Shown here piece after piece: positions 9,541-63,624 of a stretch of DNA of 64,000 bases. Origin of the DNA: Sycon ciliatum (lineage: Eukaryota > Porifera > Calcarea > Leucosolenida > Sycettidae); assembly GCF_964019385.1 (NCBI RefSeq), contig NC_088655.1, positions 17,784,690 to 17,848,689 on the forward strand, written 5' to 3'. A program made the translations under genes and the position numbers. The notes below the pieces were generated by a model. It ran no database searches and was not told the DNA's origin. It saw nothing but the letters and a program-made list of their open reading frames with translations. Numbering within the stretch: the first letter of the stretch is position 1; the number at the start of each line of letters is the position of its first letter.

Positions 9541-10045
9541 CGACCACTGGTGCAATAATGACCACTGGTGCAAAAATGACCACTGGTGCAATAATGACCA
9601 CTGGTGCAATAACGACCACTGGTGCAATAATGACCACTGGTGCAATAATGACCACTGGTGCAATAATGACCACTGGTGCAATAATGACCACTGGTGCAAT
9701 AATGACCACTGGTGCAATAATGACCACTGGTGCAATAACGACCACTGGTGCAATAATGACCACTGGTGCAATAATGACCACTGGTGCAATAACGACCACT
9801 GGTGCAATAATGACCACTGGTGCAATAATGACCACTGGTGCAATAATGACCACTGGTGCAATAATGACCACTGGTGCAATAATGACCACTGGTGCAATGA
9901 TGACCACTGGTGCAATAATGATCACTGGTGCAATGATGACCACTGGTGCAATAATGACGACTGGTGCTATGATGACCACTGGTGCAATAATGACCACTGG
10001 TGCAATAATGACCACTGGTGCAATAATGGACACTTGTGCAATAAT
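9541..10045. repeat. 18-bp minisatellite, about 28 copies
   Basis: The unit ATAATGACCACTGGTGCA is repeated head to tail about 28 times with few substitutions (mostly ATAACG, ATGATG and AAAATG variants at the first positions). Because 18 is a multiple of 3, long open frames exist in several frames on both strands (for example MTTGAI repeats). They need not be coding: there is no flanking domain, and the frames open and close at the repeat edges. Confidence 0.95.
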
Positions 10046-15394: not shown

Positions 15395-15405
15395 CTATAT
15401 TATTT
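15395..15405. repeat. Target-site duplication, left (CTATATTATTT)
   Basis: The 11-mer CTATATTATTT at 15395-15405 is repeated at 17340-17350. The uninterrupted homologous site in duplication unit 1 (11283-11293) has it once, directly followed by the LINE (ATT)n tail. This identifies 15406-17339 as a later insertion. Confidence 0.85.
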
Positions 15406-16163: not shown

Positions 16164-16210
16164 ACACCTGATGAGCCGTCACGAACCATACGGCGAAACG
16201 TACGTCGTGT
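16164..16210 (+). ncRNA. Hammerhead ribozyme, 590-bp family, copy 1
   Basis: Self-cleaving RNA motif, type I. Stem I is ACAC (16164-16167) with GTGT (16207-16210). The core CTGATGA (16168-16174) is followed by stem II GCCGT/ACGGC around a 10-nt loop, then GAAA. Stem III ACG/CGT has a 2-nt TA loop. The cleavage triplet is GTC with C at 16206. All invariant core bases are present. The short stem III matches hammerheads known from Penelope-like elements. Confidence 0.85.
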
Positions 16211-30915: not shown

Positions 30916-32596
30916 TTAACATTCGGAATCAGACTCTTCAGAAGTATCCTCTTCATATCCATCGAGAACATCAACTCCTTGGTCTTGTGAATCTTGCGAT
31001 TTGCTGGTGCTACATTTACTGCCCGGTTGAGTACGGGGTGCTTTTCTAATATTCTTCTTGGACCGTTGATAGACAAACCACTTCCGTATGGTTGTTGTCG
31101 TTACGGCAAAACGGTTAGCCAATTGGGCTAACCTTCGTGTAGATGGCCAATGATCTTGAGCAAATTCATGCGTCAGAACAGCATACTGATTCTCTGAAAG
31201 TCGCTTGTGGGCTCGGCCACTTCCCGATTTGGTAGTACTTTTATCTCGTGGGGGACTGACGTTCCTGTCTACGTCATCTAGCCATGCTTTGAATATAGGA
31301 TACAACGAATTCAATTCAGCGTCACCAAATGAACGACTTCTAAACCTGGTGATAGAGTTCTTAGAGATTGGAAATTTGGCACCATAGGATATGCAGAGTA
31401 TGGATGCGAGTCTTTTTTGTGAAAATGTTTGCCCGTTCTCTTGCTGTTTTGACCAATTCGCAAAACGCCTGATGATTATACCTCAATATATCTGCCTTTG
31501 CCGCCGGAGAAGAGTGATCCAATTCAGTTCGTATCGGGCGATTTGGGGATGATCCGAAATCGCTTGTTCTCTGCCCAAGCGAAGCATTCTCGCTGTTTTG
31601 CTGTTGTGATGGACTCAAGGTTAAAGAGGAAGCTATCACAGGTAAACTAAAACGCGTATCTTTTTGTGGCGTTAATAATCTCCTAAAGGCTGTCGGGGGG
31701 TATGGGGATGCTGCATAGCGCCTTCTACTCTTCCTATGAGAAATACACTCACGGTTTTGCTGATGCGAGTTACTGCCGGACGAAGAAGAAGCATATCCCT
31801 GTAAAGCAGATGGTGTATCGTGCTGCGCTGAACTACGGGCATTCGATATAGTTATATGGTCTTGGGAGCCAGATGCGGATGCTGTGTGATTCCAGGTTCT
31901 CGGAACAAGGGAAACGTTCTCTGAGTAATTCTGCCACTGGTGATGCTCCTGCTGTGGATTGAGGGAGGAATTATACGAGATGCCTTCTAGTCGCTCTTTC
32001 GCTCCATGATGGTGAGTAGGATTGCTAGAAGCAATGGCAGGCTGTGTTAGGTAAGAGCCACTGCTAGAACTGGCATATGCCACTTGCTGCAAGCCAGACG
32101 AACAAGATACAGATACAGATCCACTTGCAGATGATAGCTCCGAACCAATAGTCACATCGGGTTCGACGGGTCTGGAAGTGAAGTATTTTGTTTCGGTTTG
32201 AGCTGGCCGGGGCCCATTCAGCCAACGGGCAATTTCTTGATCGTCGTGGGCAACTTGCTTCCAATCTAATGCGATTTCCTCAGCGAAATCTAGCGGTTTG
32301 TCTTTGGAGTATTGTCGTGTCTTGATCTTTTCCAGCACGGCAGTAAGCTCATTTCGCAGTGGGTAAGAGTCCCAGGGACTTTCGTCACAGTTGTGCTCCA
32401 GTTCCAGGCTAAGCCTTGGTGGACAATTCGATGATGTTTGTAGCGCCATAGATGTGCTTGATGGGTTATTGAAGTGTGATGTGGCATCTGGTATGGTCTC
32501 ACTGCTGGGCGACGATGTCCTGCTCTTTGCTGTTGAAGTTGAAGACTTGATCCAAGAAGGGACACCTGTCGCCGTTCGTGGTGAATGGTCAGCCAT
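30916..32596 (-). pseudogene. POU-homeodomain-like gene A, frameshifted in the POU-specific domain
   Basis: Paralogue of the genes at 35448-37124 and 57375-59084; the product would be a nuclear DNA-binding regulator. The start is taken as ATG 32594-32596 (MADHSP), because in all three genes this ATG follows a CTTTCAG splice-acceptor-like word and the frame upstream is poorly conserved. The N-terminal half is Ser/Gln-rich low complexity. It includes a shared block with SYPLRNELTAVLEKIKTRQ and a DWKQVA segment. The POU-specific domain starts normally (FCELVKTARERANI). One extra A in the AAAA at 31422-31425, compared with genes B and C, then shifts the frame, and the original frame stops at 31361. 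The rest of the domain, the homeodomain and the acidic tail remain readable in the second frame to 30916. Homeodomain position 51 is Tyr instead of Asn (WFVYQR). A sequencing error or a tiny intron cannot be excluded. Confidence 0.75.
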
Positions 32597-38150: not shown

Positions 38151-38371
38151 TGATGAGTTCAAAAAGAACGAAACAGCATGCTGTCCGCAGATTGAGTATT
38201 TCGTCCTGCTCTTGTAGCAGTTGAGCACTCTTGCGTGGGGTAGTGCCTTCGATGTTTGCGTTATGCAGAGCTCACTGACTTGTTAGTTTGAGCACTCTGG
38301 CAAGGTACGTTCGCGCCTGATTGGAAATTTTTATTTCCATTGCTATCCGGTTCGGCCTCATTTCCTCTGTG

Positions 38372-38417
38372 CTGCGCTGATGAGTTCAAAAAGAACGAAA
38401 CAGCATGCTGTCCACAG
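38372..38417 (+). ncRNA. Hammerhead ribozyme, 228-bp family, unit 2
   Basis: Type I layout: stem I CTGCG, core CTGATGA, stem II GTTC/GAAC, GAAA, stem III CAGC/GCTG with a 2-nt AT loop, cleavage triplet GTC. The 3' strand of stem I reads CACAG instead of CGCAG, leaving one mismatch, so cleavage may be weakened. Confidence 0.8.
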
Positions 38418-38599
38418 ATTGAGTATTTCGCTCCTGCTCTTGTAGCAGTTGAACACTCTTGCGTGGGGTAGTGCCTTCGCTGTTTGCGTTATGCAGAGCT
38501 CACTGACTTGTTAGTTTGAGCACTCTGGCAAGGTACGTTCGGGCCAGATTGGAAATTTTTATTTCCATTGCTATCCGGTTCGGCCCCATTTCCTCTGTG

Positions 38600-38645
38600 C
38601 TGCGCTGATGAGTTGAAAACGAACGAAACAGCATGCTGTCCGCAG
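38600..38645 (+). ncRNA. Hammerhead ribozyme, 228-bp family, unit 3
   Basis: All core bases and stem I CTGCG/CGCAG are present. The fourth base of stem II's 5' strand is G instead of C (GTTG), shortening stem II to three pairs. Confidence 0.8.
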
Positions 38646-38827
38646 ATTGAGTATTTCGCTCCTCCTCTTGTAGCAGTTGAGCACTCTTGCGTGGGGTAGT
38701 GCCTTCGCTGTTTGCGTTATGCAGAGCTCACTGACTTGTCAGTTTGAGCACTCTGGCAAGGTACGTTCGGGCCTGCTTGGAAATTTTTATTTCCATTGCT
38801 ATCAGGTTCGGCCTCATTTCCTCTGTG

Positions 38828-38873
38828 CTGCGCTGATGAGTTCAAAAAGAACGAAACAGCATGCTGTCCGCAG
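38828..38873 (+). ncRNA. Hammerhead ribozyme, 228-bp family, unit 4
   Basis: Complete motif: stem I CTGCG/CGCAG, CTGATGA, stem II GTTC/GAAC, GAAA, stem III CAGC-AT-GCTG, cleavage after GTC at 38868. Confidence 0.88.
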
Positions 38874-39017
38874 ATTGAGTATTTCGCTCCTGCTCTGGAA
38901 GCAGTTGAGCACTCTTGCGTGGGATAGTGCCTTTGCTGTTGGCGTTATGCAGAGCTCACTGACTTTTCAGTTTGAGCACTCTGGCAAGGTACGTTCGGGC
39001 CTGATTGGAAATTTTTA

Positions 39018-39516
39018 ATGGAAGTTTCCGGAGGAGGAAGGAGGAAACTGTAGTTATCACCAACCCTCACCGCGCCCAGCTCACGCCGCCACGGCGTGCG
39101 ACCTGAGCTGGACGCCCTGCCCAGTATGGAACTGTCCTCAAGCCAGTCACGTATTTGGCAGCCCAGTGAGCTGTCTACCGGATCGCAGCATTTAGAAGCG
39201 CCAAATGCGGCAGTGCCAGTCTCAGGCTGGTCGCGTAGGCGGCAGGCCGGCGGGCGACCGGCAAGGCTGCATTCGCATTTGGATCACCGAAGTGATACAG
39301 GTGCTTCGACGGCACTCTGCGACGCGTCAAGGAGGCATCTGGGGCCCAGGCAGCCCGCCCGTAAGCGCACCACTGTATCAGGTATGCGCAGGTGGAGCAG
39401 CAGAGCAAGATGTGTGCCGGACACTCACCATCATCCGGTCGACTGCACGGTTGTGGGACTTTACACAGCCGTCACTCATTACTTGCTATTGCTTGCAGAA
39501 GGCCAGAATTTTTTTT
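39018..39516 (+). repeat. Split direct repeat A1
   Basis: Begins ATGGAAGTTTCCGGAGGAGG. It is nearly identical to A2 at 47094-47592, differing at a few bases (for example a G/T change near 39210). Overlapping frames of 110-150 codons exist on both strands, but the identical non-coding-like copy at the other end argues that this is terminal repeat. Confidence 0.85.
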
Positions 39517-40006
39517 GCTCTCGTTTGCTCTAAAGCTAGTTGGTTTACATGGTTTATACCCGTACCTAGTACCTGAGCATGGATCCTACTCAGCAGCGGA
39601 TCGCTGGTATTCCTCGTTTGAGACCGCGGCGACGGCAGCGTCGGCCCTGACCAACAAGCCTCGGGTGATGAGCATGCCGGCCGAAAATGCAGGCATGGAC
39701 ACTGTCGTGCATGACCAGTTTAGTTGAGTTCCTTGGAGGCGCTATGATGCCGGCCGGCGCATGTGTTGGCGCACGGGAGACGATTAGGACAATTACGGCG
39801 TGCGGAATACTTCGAGCTGGCCACAATGCTTCCTTCTTGTCCTGCCCACACGCGTACGCAGCCAGCAGCCAAACGTGTTAAAATCGATCAATCCGATGGC
39901 AATCACTGAGTGGAATTGTCATTGGCGGCTCCTATTCTGGCAAGAGAAAAACTGAATCTCGAATCTACTGGGTCGAGACCTGGCAGACTTTCAGAACCAT
40001 CGCGCC
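39517..40006 (+). other. Start of the internal region of the Ngaro-like element
   Basis: A short basic frame starts at about 39579 (MDPTQQRIAGIPRLRPRR) and stops soon after. It could be a gag start remnant. Nothing firmer is visible. Confidence 0.35.
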
Positions 40007-40246
40007 TTGCAACACGGGCTTACGCCCTCTGGGGCCCTAAGTAGTCCGACAAGAAATTCATACTGCACGGCGACAAAAAGGCAGTTGGAGCAGTCTGAAA
40101 TCCGGGACTTGCCGAAATCCAACCGTGACGGAACTAGCCCACTTCAGCCCCCGCATGGTAGCAGAGCACAAGGCTTTATCTCGCTGACTACCCATATTAC
40201 GGCCACGGACAACTCCGCTGCGGACGCTCTTTCACGCGGACGATAA
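40007..40246 (+). pseudogene. RNase H C-terminal relic of a DIRS/gypsy-type polyprotein
   Basis: The 79-codon frame ends in THITATDNSAADALSRGR and then a stop. The pattern H-I-x-x-x-D/N-x-x-A-D-x-L-S-R is the standard end of the RNase H domain in DIRS- and gypsy-type elements, where RNase H removes the RNA strand during reverse transcription. The residues before it are not convincingly RNase H and the catalytic DEDD set is not visible, so only the tail survives. It lies between A1 and B1, where a Ngaro element should carry its RT/RNase H frame. Confidence 0.6.
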
Positions 40247-40427
40247 GTCCATTTCCTCTCATCGGCTCCCTAATCCAGCTGCTGGACTCGGCTTAGTCCC
40301 GAACTCATGCTATGCGGGAGCAACTAATCATGGCAGCAAACCGGCTGAACTTCTTCTCAACCAATGCGTGCCTCCTTTTTCATTCGCTGTGTAGTCTATC
40401 TCTCTCAGCACACGTGGGTAAGCACGC

Positions 40428-40540
40428 AAGCACACACACACCCACGCACACGCATACATACATACATACACACATACATACATACCTACATACACACACA
40501 CACACACACACACACATACTCTCTCTCTCTCTCTCTCTTT
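40428..40540. repeat. Compound (CA)n / (CATA)n / (CT)n microsatellite
   Basis: Runs of ACACAC, CATACATA, ACACAC and CTCTCT follow one another inside the Ngaro-like element. They create spurious frames rich in T-H and V-C. Confidence 0.9.
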
Positions 40541-41099
40541 AACCTCCTCTCCTCCATCCCTCACCCTGCTTCGCCTCTAAGTGCTGTCGCTCCCCTCCCC
40601 TTCCTACTCGTACTAGGCGGCATTACACCAAGTCTCAGCATGAGGGGTCTACTTTGTTGTTTTGGGGCTTTGTTTGGACATGGCGAGCTGTTATCTTTTT
40701 CCTTGCGGCTGTCGTCGCTGTTGCCATTGTTGTTTAGATACCACGGCGAGCCGGCAGTAAGTGCCGGTGTTGGCAGGCTGGCGACCTTGTCTTACTTTCA
40801 GTAATTAACACTGTACCCGAGGTGCGACGGATTAATCCGTCACGACCGCGCAGGGCATATTGCAGACACGCGTATGTGCGTTACACACACACACTCACAC
40901 ATTACTAGGCGCACCCGGCGGGCAGGGCGATTGGCCCATGCTGCTTATTCAGTTGTACTAGCGGAGGCAGGGGCGATTCCCCTTCGTAATCGCCCGTGCG
41001 GCGGAATACCCGGCGGCCTGATACGGCGGCGGTGCGAGCAAATGCAGGGGTCGTTCCCTTTTGAGCTCTGTTTGTGGCGGCGGCAGAGGCAGGGGCAGC

Positions 41100-41300
41100 G
41101 CCCCCAGCCCATGCGGCGGTTGACCCGGCGGCCCGACATGGCAGTTGACCCAGCGGTCCGATATGGCAACTGACCCGGCGGTCTGATATGGCGGCTGACC
41201 CAGCGGTCTGATATGGCGGCGGCTGACCCAGCGGTCTGATATGGCGGCTGACCCAGCGGTCTGATATGGCGGCTGACCCAGCGGTCTGATACGGCGGCTA
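41100..41300. repeat. Minisatellite of about 27 bp, about 8 copies
   Basis: The words CTGACCCAGCGGTCTGATA and TGGCGG repeat head to tail with small variants. It lies inside the Ngaro-like internal region. Confidence 0.8.
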
Positions 41301-41309
41301 TGCGAGCAA

Positions 41310-42680
41310 ATGCAGGGGCAGCGCCCCTTTGCGCGTGTTGTTTGCGGCGGCATTGGTCAAGGCAGGGGCAGCGCGCCTCGCCTGGGTGGCGTTATGCCCG
41401 GCGCTGCGGCTATGTTTGCAAAACGCAGGGGCCGCTTTCCTTTGAGCTTTGTATGTTCACAGCTTTGTTTGCAATATTCAGGGGCAGCTCCCCTTGGGGC
41501 CTGGTACAGTTATGTTTGCAAAAAGCAGGGGCAACTCCCCTCCGAGCCTTGTATGTAATCGTTTACAGCGATGCTTGCAGAAAGCAGGGGCAGCTCCCCT
41601 TAGTGCGTGGTATGTTTACAGCTATGTTTGCGAGGAAGAAACAAAAAAAAAGGGCTTGGAGCTGGGTATGTTTACGGCCACGTTTGCAAAATGCAGGGGT
41701 AGCTCTCCTTGGACCTTTAGCTAGTTGACAGCTACGCGACAAAATGCAGGGACAGCTCCCCTTGGAGCTTTGGATGTTTACAGCTATGTTTGCAAAATGC
41801 AGGGGCAGCTCCCCTTGGAGCTTTAACTAGTTTACAGCTGTGCGGACAAAATGCAGGGGCAGCACTCCTTGAAACTTTGGATGTTTACCACTATGTTGGC
41901 TAAATGCAGGGGCAGTTCCCCTTGGGGCTTGGATGTTTACAGCCAGGTTTGCAAAATGCAGGGGTAGCTCCCCTCAGAGCGTTGTAGGTTTACAGCTAGG
42001 TTTGCCAAATGCAGGGGCAGCTCCCCTTGGAACTTTGGATGTTTACAGCTATATTTGCAAATACAGGGGCAGCTCCCCTTGGAGCCTTCTACGTTTACAA
42101 CTATGTTTGCAAAATGCAGGGGCAGCTCCCCTTTGAGCTTCGTAGGTTTACTGCTAGGTTTGCAAAACGCAGGGGTAGCTCCCCTTTGGAGCTTTGGATG
42201 TTTACAGCTATGCTTGCAAACTGCAGGGGCAGCTCCCCTGGGAGCTTTTGAAGTTGGATGTTTACACGTGTGGTCGCAAAATGCAGGGGCAGCTCCCCTG
42301 GGAGCTTTGGATGTTTACAGCTATGTTTGCAAATGCAGGGTCAGCCCCCCTTGGAGCCTTGGATGCTTACAACTATGTGTGCAAAATGCAGGGACAGCTT
42401 CCCTTTGAGCTTTGTTGGTTTACAGCTAGGTTTGCAAAACGCAGGGGTAGCTCCCCTGAGCTTTGGATGTTTATAGCTATGCTTGCAAAATGCAGGGGCA
42501 GCTCCCCTTGGAGCCTTGGAAGTTTACAGCTATGTTTGGAAAATGCAGGGGCAGCTCCCCTGGGAGCATTGGATGTGTACAGCTATGTTTGCAAAATGCA
42601 GGGGCATTTCCCCTTGGAGCTTGGTATATTTACAGCTAGGCTTGCAAAATGCAGGGGCAGCTCACCCTCGGAGCGTGGTT
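41310..42680. repeat. 53-bp minisatellite, about 25 copies, with palindromic GGGGCAGCTCCCC core
   Basis: The unit has TTTACAGCTATGTTTGC, AAAATGCAGGGGCAGCTCCC and CTTGGAGCTTTGGATG. Spacing of the core at 41801, 41855, 41908, 41960 and 42013 gives 52-54 bp. Each unit carries a GGGGNAGCTCCCC palindrome. Long frames occur on the plus strand but in all registers, so no protein is called. Confidence 0.9.
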
Positions 42681-42934
42681 TGTTTGCAGCTGAGATGGGG
42701 AGTGCAACCGAAGATCTCCTTTCGAGCTTGCTTGTTCGCATTTGCTTGTTAGCACCGTAGCTCGGGCACCCAGCAGGTCCTGACTGGCCTCTCGCGCATA
42801 CTCCCGGCCACATTTATTGCCTGTTGCAGGAAAAGGGGCCTCACCCCATATTTTTTTGGACGATCGGCGGGCGGGAAGCCGTCATCGACGTAAGAGGCAA
42901 AATACAAGAATAACTGAGAAACTAATAATTGTAT

Positions 42935-43850
42935 ACAACGCGCCAACCCTTTGGCTCTGTTGTCGGCTCTGCGGGGGGCACCCAGGTATCCCCCTCGTGC
43001 GAACACCACCCGTGGAAGCGGAAAAGTTGTGACGGCGTATTCAGTAGTGCCCAGCACCAGCAGGACCTACCAATCAGGGGAAAGCCTAGCAGTCCTTCAT
43101 GGCAATCCCCTTGGTAGACCCCCTCAAGCTGACACAGGATCTGGCCACCAGGAAGGGGCCTGGACGGCAGCTCCAGGTCACCGGAAGGTGGTCAGGGTTG
43201 ACCCGCAAGAGATGCATGTGCGGTGGAGCCTGTAACTAAACGGCCACCCCTTGGGGCCAGAGAAAGTGGTCTTGAGGGGCAGGTGGTCCTTAGTTGGAGG
43301 CTTGCACCGCAAACTATGAATGTGAGACCGTCCGTGCCCGGCGAAGGTGTCCATAGTACAAGGCGGGTAGCTAGTCACACTTGTATCCAACACGACAGCC
43401 CTTCGGCTGTTGTCTGCCCGGCTTGGGGCGCCCAGGTATCCCCCCGTGCGAACACTACCCGCGGAAGCTGACAAGTCGTCAGCGTATTCAGTAGTGCCCA
43501 GCACCAGCAGGAGCTACCAACCAGGGGAAAGCCTAGCAGTCCTTCATGGCAATGCCCTTGGTAGACGCCCTCAAGCTGACACAGGATCTGGCGGCCAGGA
43601 AGGTGCCCGGACGGCAGCTCCAGGCCGCGGAAGGTGGTCAGGGTTGACCCGCAAGAGATACAGGTGCGGTTGAGCCTGTGGCTAACGACCACCCCTTGGG
43701 GCCAGAGAAAGCGGTCCTTAGTGGCAGGTGGTCCTTGGCTGCAGGCTTGCACCGCACAACCAATATGAATGTGAGACCGTCCGTGCCCGGCGAAGTGGTC
43801 CGTAGTACCAGACTGGTCGCTGGTCACAGTGGTCTTTAGCTACTGGTTTC
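42935..43850. repeat. 450-bp tandem duplication
   Basis: Copy 1 (about 42940-43390) and copy 2 (about 43391-43850) share CCCAGGTATCCCCC at 42981 and 43431, AGTAGTGCCCAGCACCAGCA, CCTAGCAGTCCTTCATGGCA and GTGAGACCGTCCGTGCCCGG. It is internal to the Ngaro-like element and has no recognisable protein. Confidence 0.85.
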
Positions 43851-44101
43851 ACTGTATACCGAATCAGGCATGACATCACAGGTCTACAGCGAACAGCACA
43901 GAGATCGACGGGACCAAGAATAGGGGATAGCGTGCGGCGAGGCCACCCCCATTATTTTTGGGAGGCACGGCTTCATGTTAGAGCAGTAAATTGCAGTTAG
44001 GGACTCAGCTGAGTCAAGCTGGACTCAGCGTGTCAAGTTTGGCATAATACAATAAGCACGCTATCCCCAAACAGTTGTGTGGTTATGGGGCTGTTAAGTG
44101 A

Positions 44102-44109
44102 TGACGTCA
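44102..44109. promoter_or_regulatory. CRE/ATF-type palindrome TGACGTCA in the left TIR
   Basis: The full palindromic cAMP-response-element word TGACGTCA lies 15 bases from the left end. The right TIR keeps it at 47019-47026. It may be a promoter element of the transposon or part of a transposase site; no further evidence. Confidence 0.35.
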
Positions 44110-44603
44110 CAGTTCCTTCGATACGCATAGCAACGATCCCACTGGGGACAAACAAAAGTAGCGTCGTCTCCACCGAACCAGTTGTCACTGGCAACATATA
44201 GGAATCGTGTACATTTCTTCGTTTCTTCTTTGCTGTTTTCAGTGAGTGTTTTGTTTTCTCTTTGTCCGTGGTCTCGACGGTGTTGTCGTGCTCATTACCT
44301 TACTGAGACGTCTCTTGTGACTGTAGCCAGTGTCACGGACGATTTTATTGGCGTGACGAGGTAGATCGCCGAGATCGAGCATGAAAAACGCTCTGCATTA
44401 GTAGCTCCTGTAGAATGTTTTCTGGGATGGCGTATCGATGGTCAACAAAGCCAAGGTGCAAGACAGCATGAGAGATCGTGTAAACGATGTGAACTCCAAA
44501 AGGTTAGCTCCTGAACAAGTGGAAAGATATGTGTATTTACAAACTCTCTCTTCATCCATCGATTGCCGCTATGCATTGCATTTTGTCTTCACAGATAATC
44601 TGG

Positions 44604-44757
44604 ACAAATAAATTATATTGTAACTGGAGAGTGCAATCGTGCTTGGGACCCATCCCAATGTCATCACATGGCTGTGGTGACTAGTGTATACCTGGGAGAG
44701 TTTTCCTCAACTGAGACGGAGTGTAGGTGGATGGATTATGAGAAATGCGAAGATGTG
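44604..44757 (+). pseudogene. Possible zinc-binding (SWIM/CxHH-like) exon of the transposon protein
   Basis: One frame reads SGQINYIVTGECNRAWDPSQ followed by CHHMAVVTSVYLGEF and TECRWM. It ends at a GTAAGT splice donor at about 44758. A C-x(n)-C-H-H-M-A pattern followed by hydrophobic residues resembles the zinc-binding segment ahead of YqaJ-type nuclease domains in eukaryotic transposons. The frame is short and stops just upstream, so it may be an exon or a relic. Assignment rests on pattern memory only. Confidence 0.4.
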
Positions 44758-46118
44758 GAGTAAGTTGTGTCGAAGAAATGTGTAATAAAATAAAATTTAC
44801 TTTACACTCAAAACATACACTGTACATGTACATGCAACATCATGATAATGATTCCATCGTCATATCTTCGCAACAGGTACGCCATACGCACCGAATACAT
44901 GGTGTGTGTGCACGCGCGCACTTGCGTGCGCACGTACATGCACACACTCTCGTACGTGGCCGAGTTGGCCGGATGAACAGACCACGCATTTGCACGAGGT
45001 GTCCGTCATGTCAATGGAATGCTGTACTTTATGACTTTATTCCAAAATAGTATGTCTTGCCCCTGCCAAATGGAGTTTTGTCTATGCTCAGCGGGTATCG
45101 GGCCATGACACCACACTGCAGTCAGCGCTGAAATTAAAATAGCACTTCATGGATTATTTTAACTAGTTTCCTTTGCGTTTACTTTGTCGAGCCCGTGGTT
45201 TCATTTCTGTGTTCTGTTATGATTGGCCTCTGGAAATAATCGGAGTGGATGTCATTTTTGTCATATGTGTGTGCCTTGTGCAACAGGTTAAAGGCTAGAT
45301 TCACTTCACACTCGGCGTGTGGGACCTGATAACGTCTTGGTTGGATGGGTGATCAAGGATGATACTACTCGGCACACCAATGTACATGTCAATGTAATTT
45401 TTACTTTTTCAGAGCTGAACTATTTACGTCTTGATGCTTACTTCGGTGCTAGCGTGTTTCCCCCGGATTATTTCTATCATCATGCGTGTTCTTGGGCTGA
45501 GCGAGCACATGCACGAGTGTGTAGCTATAACCCTGTGTATCTTTGGTTACACTTTGTTCTGCAATGCATGTACATGTACCTTGTAACAGTATGTGCTTGC
45601 ACTGCTTTGTGTGGCCTGTGTATTTCAGGACTATTCAGTGCATTAGACCAAGGTTGGTTTGGTTGCCGGATGATCTCTTGTTGCGTCGCTCTGTGTTTTG
45701 TATTCATAAATTTTTGGGCTTGATAATTGAGCTGGTGTGTGGTTCCCAATATGAAAACATCATGCTGGTGCTCTGTGTTTCGATTATCGACTGCCCGAGC
45801 AGTCGCGATTCATTACCAGAACGGTCAATTCTGTAGTCTCTTGACGTGTTTGTCTTTTTGTGTTTTCGCCAGGGAATTAGCGGTGACGTTGCACATAGAA
45901 CGGCAGTGTTGCGTCACTGGACGACCCTGCCTCTGTATCTGACTTCATTTCCCCAGGATCTGGTGCAGATACACCAGACAGTCACTTCCTGTAAACACGC
46001 AAACAGCAAAAGAAGAGATCCCGCAAATCAGGAAAAACCGTTGTGGAAAATATCGAGTAGATCTTACACCATTCAATAATCTGGAGTAATTACAGTGAGA
46101 CAAACACTTCAAACAGTG

Positions 46119-46119
<1 letters not shown>

Positions 46120-46187
<68 letters not shown>

Positions 46188-46199
46188 TCTCTCTCTCTC
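46120..46199. repeat. (CT)n microsatellite with an internal (CG)n block
   Basis: A nearly pure CT tract is interrupted by CGCGCGCGCGCG at about 46174-46186. The alternating CG block is a potential Z-DNA former. Confidence 0.95.
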
Positions 46200-46228
46200 C
46201 ATCCTTCCAAAATACCCTGTACCAATTC

Positions 46229-46493
46229 CCTACAGTCCATTTCAAAACTATAGACGCATAGGGTTTTTGAAATATTTCAAATTTGGCTGGGACTTTTTGA
46301 GAATAGTTTTCGGAATATTGCTCAGGACCGCTCCACAATTACTCTCATAATAATAGTTTCTAAACGATTGGATAACAGACGCCCAATTTGGAAAAATTTA
46401 TGCACAAAGTGATCACAGATTTTATGTGGTATAGATGCTGGCATAACGGTTTTTGCCTAGGTACGCGTCTATAGTTTTGAAATGGACTATGGA
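46229..46493. mobile_element. Small MITE nested in the DNA transposon
   Basis: The arms at about 46229-46262 and 46460-46493 are inverted copies sharing AGTCCATTTCAAAACTATAG and ACGC. The interior is AT-rich without a frame. Confidence 0.65.
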
Positions 46494-47093
46494 ATTATTT
46501 TATTTTATAATATCAGGACATCATTCTGAACATAATAACTTCTTCCATGGGTCTTCAATCACCACGGAGGGCGAGAATATATCTAAGTCATGCAGTTTAC
46601 GGGAGGTGCGAGCTGTCATGGATATAGAGGCTGATTTTGTGCCAGCGTGAGGGCAGAGACAGAAAGAAGACACTGATTTCTTGAACAACTCACCTGCATA
46701 TAATCGAATCCACAAGGGAGCGCTCGTACTTTGATCCATCAGGACGTGAAGAATCTTCAAAGCACTCTCAAACACGGAGTTTTACAGTGGGCAGCCAATT
46801 TCACAGCCATTATGAAGGCCCTCGACGACTACAGGAGATTTGTAGAGGAAAGAACAAGGAGTAAAGAGCGACAACAATCGCTTGAAGAAAAAGCAAAGAA
46901 AAACTGTTCTCTCTCCAGTCATTTAGATGCTGTTGCCCTTGACAACTGGTTCCATCCAGAGGACGCGACTTTTGTTTGTCCCCAGTGCTCTCCGTTGCTA
47001 TGCGTATCGAAGGGGCCGTGACGTCACACTTAACAGCCCCATTGTGTGAGTGTATATGCAGGAGCCCGCGGTCACGTGAGGGGGGAGTGATAA

Positions 47094-47592
47094 ATGGAAG
47101 TTTCCGGAGGAGGAAGGAGGAAACTGTAGTTATCACCAACCCTCACCGCGCCCAGCTCACGCCGCCACGGCGTGCGACCTGAGCTGGACGCCCTGCCCAG
47201 TATGGAACTGTCCTCAAGCCAGTCACGTATTTGGCAGCCCAGTGAGCTGTCTACCGGATCGCAGCATTTAGAAGCGCCAAATGCGGCAGGGCCAGTCTCA
47301 GGCTGGTCGCGTAGGCGGCAGGCCGGCGGGCGACCGGCAAGGCTGCATTCGCATTTGGATCACCGAAGTGATACAGGTGCTTCGACGGCACTCTGTGACG
47401 CGTCAAGGAGGCATCTGGGGCCCAGGCAGCCCGCCCGTAAGCGCACCACTGTATCAGGTATGCGCAGGTGGAGCAGCAGAGCAAGATGTGTGCCGGACAC
47501 TCACCATCATCCGGTCGACTGCACGGTTGTGGGACTTTACACAGCCGTCACTCATTACTTGCTATTGCTTGCAGAAGGCCAGAATTTTTTTT
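47094..47592 (+). repeat. Split direct repeat A2
   Basis: Second copy of A1, starting ATGGAAGTTTCCGG and ending at the AGAATTTTTTTT tract, immediately after B1. Confidence 0.85.
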
Positions 47593-47617
47593 CTTTTTTC
47601 GCTCTTTCCCTTCTTCC

Positions 47618-47792
47618 AGGCACGGCTTCATGTTAGAGCAGTAAATTGCAGTTAGGGACTCAGCTGAGTCAAGCTGGACTCAGCGTGTCAAGTTTGGCAT
47701 AATACAATAAGCACGCTATCCCCAAACAGTTGTGTGGTTATTGTGTGAGTGTATATGCAGGAGCCCGCGGTCACGTGAGGGGGGAGTGATAA
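47618..47792 (+). repeat. Split direct repeat B2 (uninterrupted)
   Basis: Starts AGGCACGGCTTCATG and ends GGGGGAGTGATAA. It gives the empty-site sequence for the DNA transposon in B1 (GTGGTTATTGTGTG). Confidence 0.85.
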
Positions 47793-47830
47793 TTTCCATT
47801 GCTATCAGGTTCGGCCTCATTTCCTCTGTG

Positions 47831-47876
47831 CTGCGCTGATGAGTTCAAAAAGAACGAAACAGCATGCTGTCCGCAG
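47831..47876 (+). ncRNA. Hammerhead ribozyme, 228-bp family, unit 5
   Basis: Complete: stem I CTGCG/CGCAG, CTGATGA, stem II GTTC/GAAC, GAAA, stem III CAGC-AT-GCTG, GTC. Confidence 0.88.
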
Positions 47877-48058
47877 ATTGAGTATTTCGCTCCTGCTCTG
47901 GAAGCAGTTGAGCACTCTTGCGTGGGATAGTGCCTTTGCTGTTTGCGTTATGCAGAGCTCACTGACTTGTCAGTTTGAGCACTCTGGCAATGTACGTTCG
48001 GGCCTGATTGGAAATTTTTATTTCCATTGCTATCAGGTTCGGCCTTATTTCCTCTGTG

Positions 48059-48104
48059 CTGCGCTGATGAGTTCAAAACGAACGAAACAGCATGCTGTCC
48101 GCAG
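48059..48104 (+). ncRNA. Hammerhead ribozyme, 228-bp family, unit 6
   Basis: Complete motif. Loop II reads AAAAC instead of AAAAA, and stems and core are unchanged. Confidence 0.88.
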
Positions 48105-48286
48105 ATTGAGTATTTCGCTCCTCCTCTTGTAGCAGTTGAGCACTCTTGCGTGGGGTAGTGCCTTCGCTGTTTGCGTTATGCAGAGCTCACTGACGTGTCA
48201 GTTTGAGCACTCTGGCAAGGTACGTTCGGGCCTGCTTGGAAATTTTTATTTCCATTGCTATCAGGTTCGGCCTCATTTCCTCTGTG

Positions 48287-48332
48287 CTGCGCTGATGAGT
48301 TCAAAAAGAACGAAACAGCATGCTGTCCGCAG
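48287..48332 (+). ncRNA. Hammerhead ribozyme, 228-bp family, unit 7
   Basis: Complete motif, identical to unit 5 in core and stems. Confidence 0.88.
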
Positions 48333-48514
48333 ATTGAGTATTTCGCTCCTGCTCTGGAAGCAGTTGAGCACTCTTGCGTGGGATAGTGCCTTTGCTGTTT
48401 GCGTTATGCAGAGCTCACTGACTTGTCAGTTTGAGCACTCTGGCAAGGTACGTTCGGGCCTGATTGGAAATTTTTATTTTCATTGCTATCAGGTTCGGCC
48501 TCATTTCCTCTGTG

Positions 48515-48560
48515 CTGCGCTGATGAGTTCAAAAAGAACGAAACAGCATGCTGTCCGCAG
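48515..48560 (+). ncRNA. Hammerhead ribozyme, 228-bp family, unit 8
   Basis: Complete motif, identical to unit 5 in core and stems. Confidence 0.88.
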
Positions 48561-48742
48561 ATTGAGTATTTCACTCCTGCTCTTGTAGCAGTTGAGCACT
48601 CTTGCGTGGGGTAGTGCCTTTGCTGTTTGCGTTATGCAGAGCTCACTGACTTGTCAGTTTGAGCACTCTGGCAAGGTACGTTCGGGCCTGCTTGGAAATT
48701 TTTATTTCCATTGCTATCAGGTTCGGCCTTATTTCCTCTGTG

Positions 48743-48788
48743 CTGCGCTGATGAGTTCAAAAAGAACGAAGCAGCATGCTGTCCGCAG
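48743..48788 (+). ncRNA. Hammerhead ribozyme, 228-bp family, unit 9, core substitution
   Basis: The conserved GAAA reads GAAG, turning the invariant A-U pair at the base of stem III into G-U. It is probably impaired. Confidence 0.75.
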
Positions 48789-49019
48789 ATTGAGTATTTC
48801 GCTCCTGCTCTGGAAGCAGTTGAGCACTCTTGCGTTGGGTAGTGCCTTTGCTGTTTGCGTTATGCAGAGCTCACTGACTTGTCAGTTTGAGCACTCTCGC
48901 AAGGTATGTTCGGGCCTGATTGGAAATTTTTATTTCCATTGCTATCAGGTTCGGCCTCATTTCCTCTGTGCTGCGCTGATGAGTTCAAAAAGAATGCTGT
49001 CCGCAGATTGAGTATATAT

Positions 49020-55744: not shown

Positions 55745-56520
55745 TATACCATGGGGACACCAGCTGCGGGGCGTCCGGCACGTTTCCTGGTGAGTGAGTT
55801 CACGAAGTGAATGCCCCCAGGGGCCTCTCGCGTGACTACTTGCCATACTGTGTTGGAGGGATGAGTCTGAACTGTCACCCTTATTTCCAGTACATCTACA
55901 TGTATACTGTCATATTGGATAAATCTTGTCTTGTAGAGTTCCACATGTGTGTATACTGCTCTGTAATGTTGTGCATTGAGCACTCTACCTTGAACTGCCT
56001 TCACCGGCCTTGTCTATAATATATTTTACTCAATCTGCGGACAGAATTATGACAGTCTTGTACTCTTGGACTAGTTTCTGCTCCATAATCCAGTATGTCA
56101 TTACTATAATAGCTTTAACGTCTGAGGTTGTTGGTATGGCTGTTAGCTCTGGGTTCCCAGACCAGGTGTGCATTGGTGGTCGACTCATATGGCCTCGCCA
56201 ATTGTGTTCATTAGACAGTTATCTGGCGCAAGTCTTGATCTGTCTCATTCAGATCTTTTTCGCTATCGTTGCTATAAGAGAAAATCTGTGGGTGCACATC
56301 CGGTGCATTTGTTGGAGATTTATGTGCTTCTCTTGCAATGGGCGTATACATGGTACACGTACATGTACAAGTACTGGAAACAAGGGTGACAGTTCAGACT
56401 TAGCGCTCTAGCACAGTACTGCAAGAAGGCACGTGAGAGTCCCCTGGGGCATTCACTCCGTGAACTCACTCACCACCAAACTGACCGTGCGTCCCACTGC
56501 TGTTGTCTCCATGGTATATT
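55745..56520. mobile_element. TIR element W (complete)
   Basis: The inverted arms 55745-55905 and about 56360-56520 share ACCATGG, GTGAGTGAGTTCACG, GAATGCCCC, CAGGGGCCTCTCGCGTGAC-like blocks and CTGAACTGTCACCCTT. The interior has no recognisable transposase. Partial copies lie at 33600-33980, about 38054-38130 and 60030-60275, each near an edge of a POU-like unit. Confidence 0.7.
56029..56050 (-). repeat. Remnant of the 228-bp hammerhead unit
   Basis: ACTCAATCTGCGGACAGAA on the plus strand equals the 3' half of stem I, the cleavage triplet and stem III of the inverted ribozyme variant. The remaining core is absent. It lies inside element W. Confidence 0.6.
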
Positions 56521-61237: not shown

Positions 61238-63490
61238 GAGAGCATGTCTGAGAAAACCAGAACATATGTGCAAGTCGATCTCTCAGATTTCGCTCAAATT
61301 TTGCAGGTAGGTTTGCTTTGGGGTGTAGATCGACATTCCAAAGCCCGCACAAAATCTTTTGAAGGGAACCATGAAATTGGCATACCCCTCAATATTGGCC
61401 CAATATTGGCACGATTTATGGGTCTACAAACGAGCCACGGCACAGCGTACAAGAACAAGCTACGAACAAAACTCCATCAAGCCATCATTACCTCACCTTA
61501 GAAGAGTTCTTGGGGCAGCACCACTTAGCCACGCCAGCATCCCAGAAGACGAGGGCAATCATCCCTTGACGCCACAAATGATCGTCTTGAAAATAGCCAA
61601 ATTACAAGCGCTGATAAAACAGCGAGCTACGTCCTCAATTAGCAAACACTATACACCGGCAGATAGTAGAACACCTCTTCTAGCACTGAGGACATGTCCC
61701 CCATCATCCTTTTGGGGTTTTCTTGAAATAAACAATTTTGAAATTTTCCACTCGACCATTCTGAAATACGTCCAAACTCATACCTGCGCTGGAAAGCTCG
61801 CCCCTCCGCGACGTCTAGTCAGCAATTTCTACTCCAACACCACTCCCAACGCTGCAGAACAAAGTGTATTGTTGACTCTGACAAGGAAAAGCAGCGGTGA
61901 TCACTTGTCACTCCAAACGACAAGCTTCTCCTTGCGCCACCAACATTTTTCGTTGCAACAGTTGATGCAAAAGTGACTGAATTTTTGCGTGTAGTTTTTG
62001 GATTTTCCTGCAAGAGGAATGATGAAATCACGTGCCTCGTGACACAAGAATGCCAGGTCTCGTAGATCACGGTTCAGCAGTTGTTCCGAGTCACCTTGAT
62101 CAAGCGCTCCTGCACTTACATGGATCACCCGTTGATCTAGATCGGATCAAGTGCATCTTGATGTCCAGCTCAAGAGCACGCATGTCGTGTTGTAGGCCTT
62201 CCAGCTGGGACTTTCCCTCAACATGCAGCACAGAGACGGGCGTGTAGGGTCAAATCACGTTGTTCATGACGTAAGAAATCTGCCATGTGGCCGCGCCACA
62301 TACTTCATGCAACCAGTGTTGGCCGCGTGCTGGTCAACTCCAAGCGACCTTGATGGCATGGACCACGCTCATTCCTTGCTGTTGCAGATCTACGTGGATC
62401 ATCAGCATGTAAACCAGCCGTAGTTCCTGTTGAACCATGTTCGGGATGAGCGAGGTTAGTGTGAAAAAATGCATCCCTGTTCTTACTGCAAGAGGAAATA
62501 TCTCCAAGAATTCTTGTCAATGCAATAATGCTAGCATTATAACGATAGTTTCTGCATGTTCTGAGCAGAGCATGCAAGAAATATAATGCATCTTACCTCC
62601 TCCCTCATGGTCCGTTTCGAATAGCGCCTCAGGAACGATCGTGATCGTGTGCATTGTGTCGTGTACCAGAAAGCATTATTCTACGTCACGATCCACGTGA
62701 TTTCTTCATTCCTCTTGCAGTAAAATCCAAAAACTACACGCAAAAATACAGTCACTTTTGCATCAACTGTTGCAACGAAAAATGTTGGTGGCGCAAGGAG
62801 AAGCTTGTCGTTTGGAGTGACAAGTGATCACCGCTACTTTTCCTTGTCAGAGTCAACAATACACTTTGTTCTGCAGCGTTGGGAGTGGTGTTGGAGTAGA
62901 AATTGCTGACTAGACGTCGCGGAGGGGTGAGCTTTCCTGCGCAGGTATGAGTTTGGACGTATTTCAGAATGGTCGAGTGGAAAAATTCAAAATTGTTTAT
63001 TTCAAGAAAACCCCAAAAGGATGATGGGGGACATGTCCTCAGTGCTAGAAGAGGTGTTCTACTATCTGCCGGTGTATAGTGTTTGCTTATTGAGGACGTA
63101 GCTCGCTGTTTTATCAGCGCTTGTAATTTGGCTATTTTCAAGACGATCATTTGTGGCGTCAAGGGATGATTGCCCTCGTCTTCTGGGATGCTGGCGTGGC
63201 TAAGTAGTGCTGCCCCAAGAACTCTTCTAAGGTGAGGTAATGATGGCTTGATGGAGTTTTGTTCGTAGCTTGTTCTTGCACGCTGTGCCGTGGCTCGTTT
63301 GTTGACCCATAAATCGTGCCAATATTGGGCCAATATTGAGGGGTATACCAATTTCATGGTTCCCTTCAAAAGATTTTGTGCGGGCTTTGGAATGTCGATC
63401 TACACCCCAAAGCAAACCTACCTGCAAAATTTGAGCGAAATCTGAGAGATCGACTTGCACATATGTTCTGGTTTTCTCAGACATGCTCTC
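61238..63490. mobile_element. Element Y, complete: ~815-bp inverted arms, TTAA target duplication
   Basis: TTAA at 61234-61237 and 63491-63494 flanks a 2253-bp element whose ends are GAGAGCATGTCTGAG and its reverse complement. The arms 61238-62052 and 62676-63490 are about 98% identical in inverted orientation. The centre (62053-62675) is unique. Frames of 85 and 205 codons appear in both arms but contain no known domain. TTAA specificity is shared by piggyBac and Kolobok superfamilies; no transposase is visible, so superfamily is open. Partial single-ended copies lie at 13856-14232 and 19914-20600. Confidence 0.8.
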
Positions 63491-63552: not shown

Positions 63553-63624
63553 GTCACCACCAGGACTCGAACCAGGGACCCTCGCTTGTAGCTAGCGATG
63601 CTCTAACCACTGAGCTATGGTGTA
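63553..63624 (-). tRNA. tRNA-like sequence, apparent anticodon CTA, probable pseudogene or SINE/LTR-embedded
   Basis: On the minus strand the D arm is perfect (GCTC-AGTGGTTA-GAGC). The anticodon stem is TCGCT/AGCGA with loop AGCTACA, giving CTA at 63589-63591, and the T arm contains GGTTCGAGTCC. Defects: the acceptor stem pairs only 5 of 7, the T stem has a T-T mismatch, and position 33 is G rather than U. These argue against a working tRNA. It lies about 230 bp downstream of the BEL/Pao-like stop, in the region expected to be LTR. Confidence 0.55.

Follow-up and report, generated by a model that had tools for sequence, protein, structure and literature searches.

A candidate mobilization signal shared by a hammerhead repeat and Penelope-like elements in Sycon ciliatum

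Which enzyme moves the small, tandemly repeated ribozyme elements of animals is a question raised by a 64,000-nt window of the Sycon ciliatum genome (contig NC_088655.1; host assembly 538 Mb), where a 228-bp tandem repeat is built around a hammerhead ribozyme (HHR). According to a 2020 review, animal retrozymes lack any conserved motif that would point to a mobilizer (PMC7761336), and circular RNAs of such repeats were described in coral, mussel and axolotl in a report whose relevant sections put forward Penelope-like elements (PLEs) as candidate mobilizers (PMC7229834). Judged by its anatomy, the Sycon element is, with near certainty, a retrozyme of the animal (non-long terminal repeat, non-LTR) kind. 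We propose that it is probably moved by a PLE enzyme through a pair of hairpin boxes; the retrozyme would work like a PLE RNA without being a PLE, with reverse transcription starting at a fixed internal point beside the PLE leader signal.

The tandem array and its ribozymes

Tandem Repeats Finder (TRF) recovered the 228-bp period, which had been noticed in a sequence-only reading of the window, in two pieces at 38151−39017 (3.8 copies, 95% matches) and 47792−48994 (5.3 copies, 96% matches). Because the pieces join in phase, with unit position 190 on either side, 38151−39017 and 47792−49015 are one array of ~9.2 units, split by an 8.8-kb insert. The sequence-only reading had taken 38151−49012 for a continuous repeat; its middle part proved to be the insert, and the 3′ end of the array mapped to 49015. 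The same reading had missed the inverted copy and the two 3′-end remnants listed in Table 1. The unit is non-coding (longest stop-free frame of 99 codons in a 456-nt dimer; GC content 0.474−0.478) and contains no reverse transcriptase (RT) or GIY-YIG endonuclease frame.

Exact HHR cores (CTGAYGAGTYCAMAAAGRACGAAACAG) occurred 3,614 times genome-wide (1854 + 1760; reversed control, 0), and a 16-mer spanning the interval from the cut to the 3′ end occurred 4,055 times (2095 + 1960; control, 1). The 16-mer continued exactly into the next unit in 1,775 cases (946 + 829), so that up to 2,280 of its occurrences are 3′ ends or diverged. A k-mer continuation test mainly reflected variants of the subfamilies and was set aside. 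A DNA search with the repeat gave 85 listed matches (best 40 of 375 candidates scored), and lengths of 228 bp (73 units) and 226 bp (33 units) were the most frequent among 167 units. Short tandem repeats of about 150−450 bp define the animal non-LTR retrozymes, and the earlier suggestion that the repeat belongs with them was borne out by its 228/226-bp tandem units, type I HHR, GC content below 50%, dispersed copies and target-site duplications (TSDs) longer than 4 bp.

As far as the consulted sections describe the retrozymes of Acropora, Mytilus and axolotl (Cervera and de la Pena 2020, PMC7229834), the Sycon element resembles them in its type I HHR, in its range from dimers to long arrays, in TSDs of over 4 bp and in its low GC content; coral units, at 220−240 bp and in tandem, are also like the 228-bp unit. 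It differs in matching no named family, in the fixed 3′ end and PLE-shared box pair documented here, and in being known from genomic sequence alone. The family had been unfamiliar on first reading, and no named family with this sequence was found in Rfam or in a literature search, which also returned no paper joining hammerhead, ribozyme and calcareous sponge. Plant LTR retrozymes share the HHR and the circular RNA cycle, but are described in the cited part of the review as having a type III HHR, LTRs and ~700-bp units (PMC7761336).

A strict pattern for the ribozyme (CTGATGA..GAAA..GTC) matched nine times in the window, seven times in the array and twice elsewhere, compared to 0.69 matches expected from shuffles. 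The pattern matches, a check of core and stems, and weak matches to the Rfam family Hammerhead_HH9 (RF02275) all agreed with the type I HHR previously read in the units. On recheck the core, stem I and stem II were whole in the five units described as intact (Table 1), and the reported defects were found again: a stem I mismatch at 38372, a stem II mismatch at 38600, a core substitution (GAAG) at 48743, and incomplete copies at the array ends (38151 and 48971). The predicted cut site, GTC/CGCAG, lies 13−14 nt before the fixed 3′ end of the family, and stem III has 4−5 bp compared to 3 bp in the PLE motif. In the fetched loci 264 of 313 HHR-like units had core, stem I and stem II all intact. 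The states of stems II and III were linked, 149 of the 313 units combining TA with CAGCATGC and 130 combining CG with CAGTTC; the inverted copy in the window has a compensated stem II, GUCC/GGAC in place of GUUC/GAAC, and stem III CAG-UU-CUG. This linkage supports selection on pairing without proving it, as two founders could also give linked states.

Hammerhead_HH9 is a single-copy intronic motif of vertebrates. It was the best-scoring Rfam family, with the whole motif aligned, yet below its gathering score of 52: at an E-value threshold the eight complete units reached 18.6−29.3 bits (E 0.0005−1.5) and the partial unit at 38151 reached 17.5 bits (E 3.4). The covariance-model check suggested by the first reading therefore gave a divided answer, with most units above background but none at the curated cut-off.

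Two other HHR repeat families were observed. One, with ~590-bp units, occupies 15405−17339 of the window; its HHRs at 16168 and 16758 score 23.5 and 26.8 bits against RF00163 (gathering, 34), an inverted piece lies at 15405−15645, and its 3′ end adjoins (TTA)n beside the frame of a long interspersed nuclear element (LINE). The other, at positions 395−680 of locus L044, is built of 237-bp units that carry the box pair of the 228-bp family; the units of the two families align at 62%, and the families are probably related.

Ends of the arrays

Array ends were mapped in 35 fetched stretches, most of them around DNA-search matches, in all but L043, and also in four PLE loci (L044−L047, with extensions L051−L053) and the window, giving 45 arrays in total. 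Because L027 and L029 are one array fetched twice, and L009/L010 and the L028 group are paralogues, such duplicates were left out of a reduced count. The 3′ end fell within 5 nt of GATTGAGTA (GAGTA) in 38 of 43 arrays where it was visible and in 28 of 31 after this reduction; the exceptions were L041/L015 (+97), a piece in L040 (+83) and the L028 group (+34), whose relatives L038 and L039 do have the usual 3′ end. In contrast, the 5′ ends were spread over the unit, with only 3 of 32 within 5 nt of the 3′-end junction. Non-simple TSD-like repeats of 9−17 nt flanked 11 of the 30 arrays with both ends (L011, L013, L018 in CA-rich DNA, L019, L020, L024, L025, L031, L033, L034 and L036), compared to a mean of 0.57 and a maximum of 3 when flanks of different arrays were paired in 200 tries. 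Many other arrays sit in (TA)n, where a TSD is unreadable.

Taken together, the fixed 3′ ends, scattered 5′ ends and TSDs are the signature of a reverse transcription that begins at one set internal site of a circular or multimeric RNA. Given a start 13−14 nt beyond the cut, linear monomers released by self-cleavage would offer only that short template, and long arrays would need a circle or an uncut multimer. For the Anolis PLE Poseidon (PAc), the sections consulted report the HHR to be dispensable for insertion in vitro and uncut RNA to be the main substrate (PMC11167929), so uncut multimers may also have served as template here.

Hairpin boxes and Penelope-like elements

The unit carries, 4 nt beyond the fixed 3′ end, a hairpin box of the form GCTC-stem-loop-TT-GAGC-ACTCT (box 1), and a second such hairpin (box 2) follows 67 nt after it in the 228-bp unit and 65 nt after it, in the same layout, in the 237-bp family. 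We read 15 PLE 5′ windows picked for long open frames (L049, L050 and L054−L066, with the near-relative pairs L054/L055 and L058/L062). The PLE start region was present in 11 of them; box 2 was found in all 11, 57−66 nt before the YS..NIP codons, and both boxes, 57−65 nt apart, were found in nine, in each case preceding the start codon. The four windows without boxes also lacked the start region. One mismatch in nine letters was allowed in this search, which was used by 6 of the 9 box 1 and 1 of the 11 box 2 matches. By eye, TGTGTA stands in the 10−14 nt of upstream sequence covered for 9 of 22 PLE-type box 1 sequences, and TGAGTA and TGGGTA stand 4 nt upstream of box 1 in the two retrozyme families.

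Genome-wide, the pattern GCTCN{8,24}TTGAGCACTCT matched 9,471 times compared to 11 times for its reversed form. The first listed places were mostly retrozyme units, and one unit may count three times; this number shows abundance, not independence, which comes from the stems. In 21 boxes chosen by hand, the stems beside GCTC/GAGC averaged 3.95 bp, compared to 2.01 bp when the inner letters were shuffled, and none of 2000 shuffles was as high; between three and five pair types were present at each of the first four stem positions. A search of Rfam with the L050 PLE leader gave no match up to E 10. The pattern also matches in viral contigs, presumably by chance, and a search of viral contigs with the protein P0001 gave no match. 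No such motif is reported in the titles and abstract openings of later retrozyme and PLE work; the reports of 2014 and 2017 that deal with HHRs of PLEs and Terminons may contain an earlier description.

The window array is followed directly by a 5′-truncated PLE of the same family (PLE-A) as L044−L047. Its open reading frame (ORF; 49022−49561) was assigned to the GIY-YIG type by reading alone; 67 of 68 homologues are at 36−52% identity, the EukProt protein P0056 matches at 90% over 32% of the query, and searches gave no Pfam match at E 0.01 and one PDB match at E 0.38. PLEs found in the genome with P0056 were 46−96% identical (best 133 of 1,733 candidates scored). PLE-A has 27 exact 3′ termini in the genome. 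Among 17 of its 3′ ends seen, 11 stop at or within a few nucleotides of GGATT, where AT-rich DNA mostly follows, and the other 6 continue through box 1; by eye, the end appears to lie between the two boxes in other PLE families, and L068, L071 and L072 resemble PLE tails ending there when compared to L063, L057 and L050. The PLE-A ends agree with the two RT start sites and optional tail described for PAc, which also needs RNA 3′ of the start (PMC11167929). As far as PAc is described there, the retrozyme is like it in the internal RT start and AT-rich targets, and unlike it in having a fuller HHR and no RT ORF; the PAc start lies inside the ORF with an AC-rich stem loop, whereas the PLE boxes here are upstream of the start codon.

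Two direct fusions, located at 3′-end sites of the PLE, join the elements with no (TA)n between them. At L047, PLE-A stops at ACTGGATT and continues as retrozyme from position 97, and at L046 it passes box 1, stops, and continues as retrozyme from position 45; the fused copies end at GAGTA(TA)n and GAG-G(TA)n, respectively. Since their breakpoints differ, the two arose independently. Both would be explained if a single enzyme had switched template from retrozyme RNA to PLE RNA; it is less likely that a retrozyme inserted precisely at the end of a PLE on two occasions. The fusions are a small number, 2 of 45 arrays. Retrozyme sequence lay nearby in all four PLE-A copies chosen by protein identity alone (L044−L047). 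The view that the two elements invariably lie side by side lost ground with ten further PLE-A 3′ ends, as described below, and the single 12-mer retrozyme match at L200 is the shared box. We also dropped the idea that the array is a terminal repeat of the adjacent PLE, since PLE-A has its own HHR and 3′ end.

Mechanism, alternatives and neighbouring features

The window array would represent one insertion of a non-autonomous retrozyme. Array transcripts would be cut by the HHR, and 226−228-nt monomers, or multimers, would be closed into circles as in the relatives of the element. A PLE RT-endonuclease would bind the paired hairpins (GCTC-stem-loop-GAGC-ACTCT) and, as the genomic insertion sites suggest, nick AT-rich DNA, often (TA)n; cDNA would begin at GAGTA, 4 nt before box 1, a start point taken from the genomic 3′ ends, and reverse transcription rolling round the circle would produce a tandem array, stopping anywhere and leaving scattered 5′ ends. 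The retrozyme would be a parasite of PLEs, whose leaders hold this hairpin pair next to a start point of the same type. In the window, the 8.8-kb insert would afterwards have split the array, and the truncated PLE and the inverted retrozyme would have arrived in the (TA)n where the array ends. More generally, we lean slightly towards the view that the paired hairpin just 3′ of the cDNA start, its two copies 57−67 nt apart, is the PLE RT recognition signal, and that animal retrozymes are circular RNA parasites that keep the signal and the ribozyme but have shed everything else; the PLE enzyme would copy their circles in a rolling, target-primed fashion and now and then switch template between retrozyme and PLE RNA. 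The box pair, the common start and the two fusions name a candidate mobilizer for animal retrozymes. They also suggest a rationale for the ribozyme, as a start 13−14 nt past the cut would make the cut linear RNA a dead end and the circle an endless template.

Several observations pull against this proposal. At the Rfam gathering score the window gave no HHR match. The minimum free energy (MFE) structure of a 67-nt piece was a competing fold 6.3 kcal/mol below the HHR, and without the 5′ flank it was still 1.6 kcal/mol below; folding of the HHR compared to shuffles (MFE z −0.83) was not used as support. Only 1−2 pairs are present in 4 of the 21 box stems, and single boxes folded no better than shuffles (z −1.0 and −0.05). 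None of ten other box matches had a PLE N-terminus within 300 nt, and some of those ten copies end before box 2, not box 1. The 590-bp HHR repeat has no GAGCACTCT box on its + strand, the ten further PLE-A 3′ ends had no retrozyme within 45 nt, and the shared boxes could reflect ancestry without present use.

The internal variation of the arrays belongs on the same side of the balance. Within-array identity in 19 arrays was at least 0.98 in 8, 0.95−0.98 in 5 and lower in 6, compared to 0.942 between arrays. Among 16 arrays with at least three full units, no minor allele occurred in two units in 7 (four of which have three units only, where sharing is impossible), one did in 3, and 2−35 did in 6, namely L012, L015, L019, L027, L028 and the window with 10. 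In the 12 arrays with at least five full units, there was no shared minor allele in 3, one in 3 and 2−35 in 6. The expectation of copies of one circle was thus partly borne out: roughly one in two of the longer arrays, among them that of the window, looks unlike such copies, and the shared internal variants call for an additional source in multimeric circles, multimer templates or later exchange.

Such variants, found in 6 of the 12 longer arrays, make some exchange or multimeric origin likely and could speak for satellite DNA generated by unequal crossing-over, with the HHR as a passenger. The fixed 3′ end, scattered 5′ ends, TSDs, thousands of dispersed copies, and the intact and compensated ribozymes make this highly improbable. 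Alternatively, the units might be PLE pseudo-LTRs (pLTRs) kept in tandem as PLE relics, with no separate retrozyme: according to the sections cited, pLTRs of PLEs carry HHRs and occur in tandem (PMC11167929), a PLE fragment adjoins the array, and PLE leaders have the box pair. However, PLE-A has a different, minimal HHR and its own 3′ end; the retrozyme forms arrays of 27 units and more with no PLE ORF between units and with the family's own 3′ end; arrays are flanked by TSDs of their own; the third HHR family, with 237-bp units, has the same layout; and the 228-bp unit is the native pLTR in none of the PLE leaders read. We therefore consider a relic origin quite unlikely.

It is also unlikely that a LINE or other RT moves the retrozyme, with the box pair retained from PLEs as a promoter or another leader signal. 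LINE RT ORFs are present in the window, and the (TTA)n at which the boxless 590-bp HHR repeat ends lies next to a LINE frame, as this explanation would have it. Against it, 4 nt separate the cDNA start from box 1 in two retrozyme families, the start is near box 1 or 2 in PLEs, PLE and retrozyme are directly fused twice, and (TA)n targets are common to both.

Table 1 Retrozyme, hairpin box and PLE features of the window (window coordinates).
Feature	Position	Strand	Remarks
Retrozyme array, left part	38151−39017	+	3.8 units; 5′ end within the HHR (unit position 7)
Retrozyme array, right part	47792−49015	+	5.4 units, in phase with left part; fixed 3′ end GATTGAGTA, then TATATA
Insert splitting the array	39018−47791	.	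Later arrival; no part of the retrozyme
Intact type I HHR, unit 4	38828−38873	+	RF02275, 28.8 bits
Intact type I HHR	47831−47876	+	
Intact type I HHR, loop II variant	48059−48104	+	
Intact type I HHR	48287−48332	+	
Intact type I HHR	48515−48560	+	Top Rfam score of the array, 29.3 bits
Box 1 example, GCTC-hairpin-GAGCACTCT	47889−47918	+	Recurs through the array
Box 2 example, GCTC-hairpin-GAGCACTCT	47957−47985	+	Recurs through the array
5′-truncated PLE, family A	49016−49933	+	Endonuclease ORF; 3′ untranslated region ends GGATTG at (TA)n
Minimal HHR motif of the PLE itself	49859−49895	+	3-bp stem III, GTA triplet
Inverted retrozyme copy, 226-bp subfamily	49956−50216	−	1.14 units; same fixed 3′ end at (TA)n
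PLE RT fragments	53153−53954	+	Frames read; no Pfam match; one piece 72% in L012
PLE-type box 1	55958−55986	+	Followed by the inverted retrozyme 3′ end at 56027−56044
Retrozyme 3′-end remnant	56027−56044	−	
Retrozyme 3′-end remnant, 1 mismatch	4833−4850	+	
Isolated PLE-type GCTC-hairpin-GAGCACT box	33847−33875	+	

The insert contains a 700-bp unit, whole at 47093−47792 and in pieces between 39017 and 47093; within it, 44087−47040 has inverted ends (TGGGGCTGTTAAGTG) and is DNA-transposon-like by eye. Elsewhere in the window, a (GTT)n run spans 2.2 kb (22518−24703, 99% matches), and an 18-bp tandem repeat at 9542−10045 (28 copies) is open in several frames. Three related ORFs with a homeodomain-like end lie at 30916−32788, 35448−37316 and 57375−59276 (− strand), the third matching PF00046 and the second having three homologues. 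Near-identical 215-codon frames form an inverted pair at 61329−61976 (+) and 62752−63399 (−). A tRNA-like sequence at 63555−63622 (− strand; RF00005, 38 bits) may be a short interspersed nuclear element, because a stretch that is very similar by eye adjoins the L047 PLE copy.

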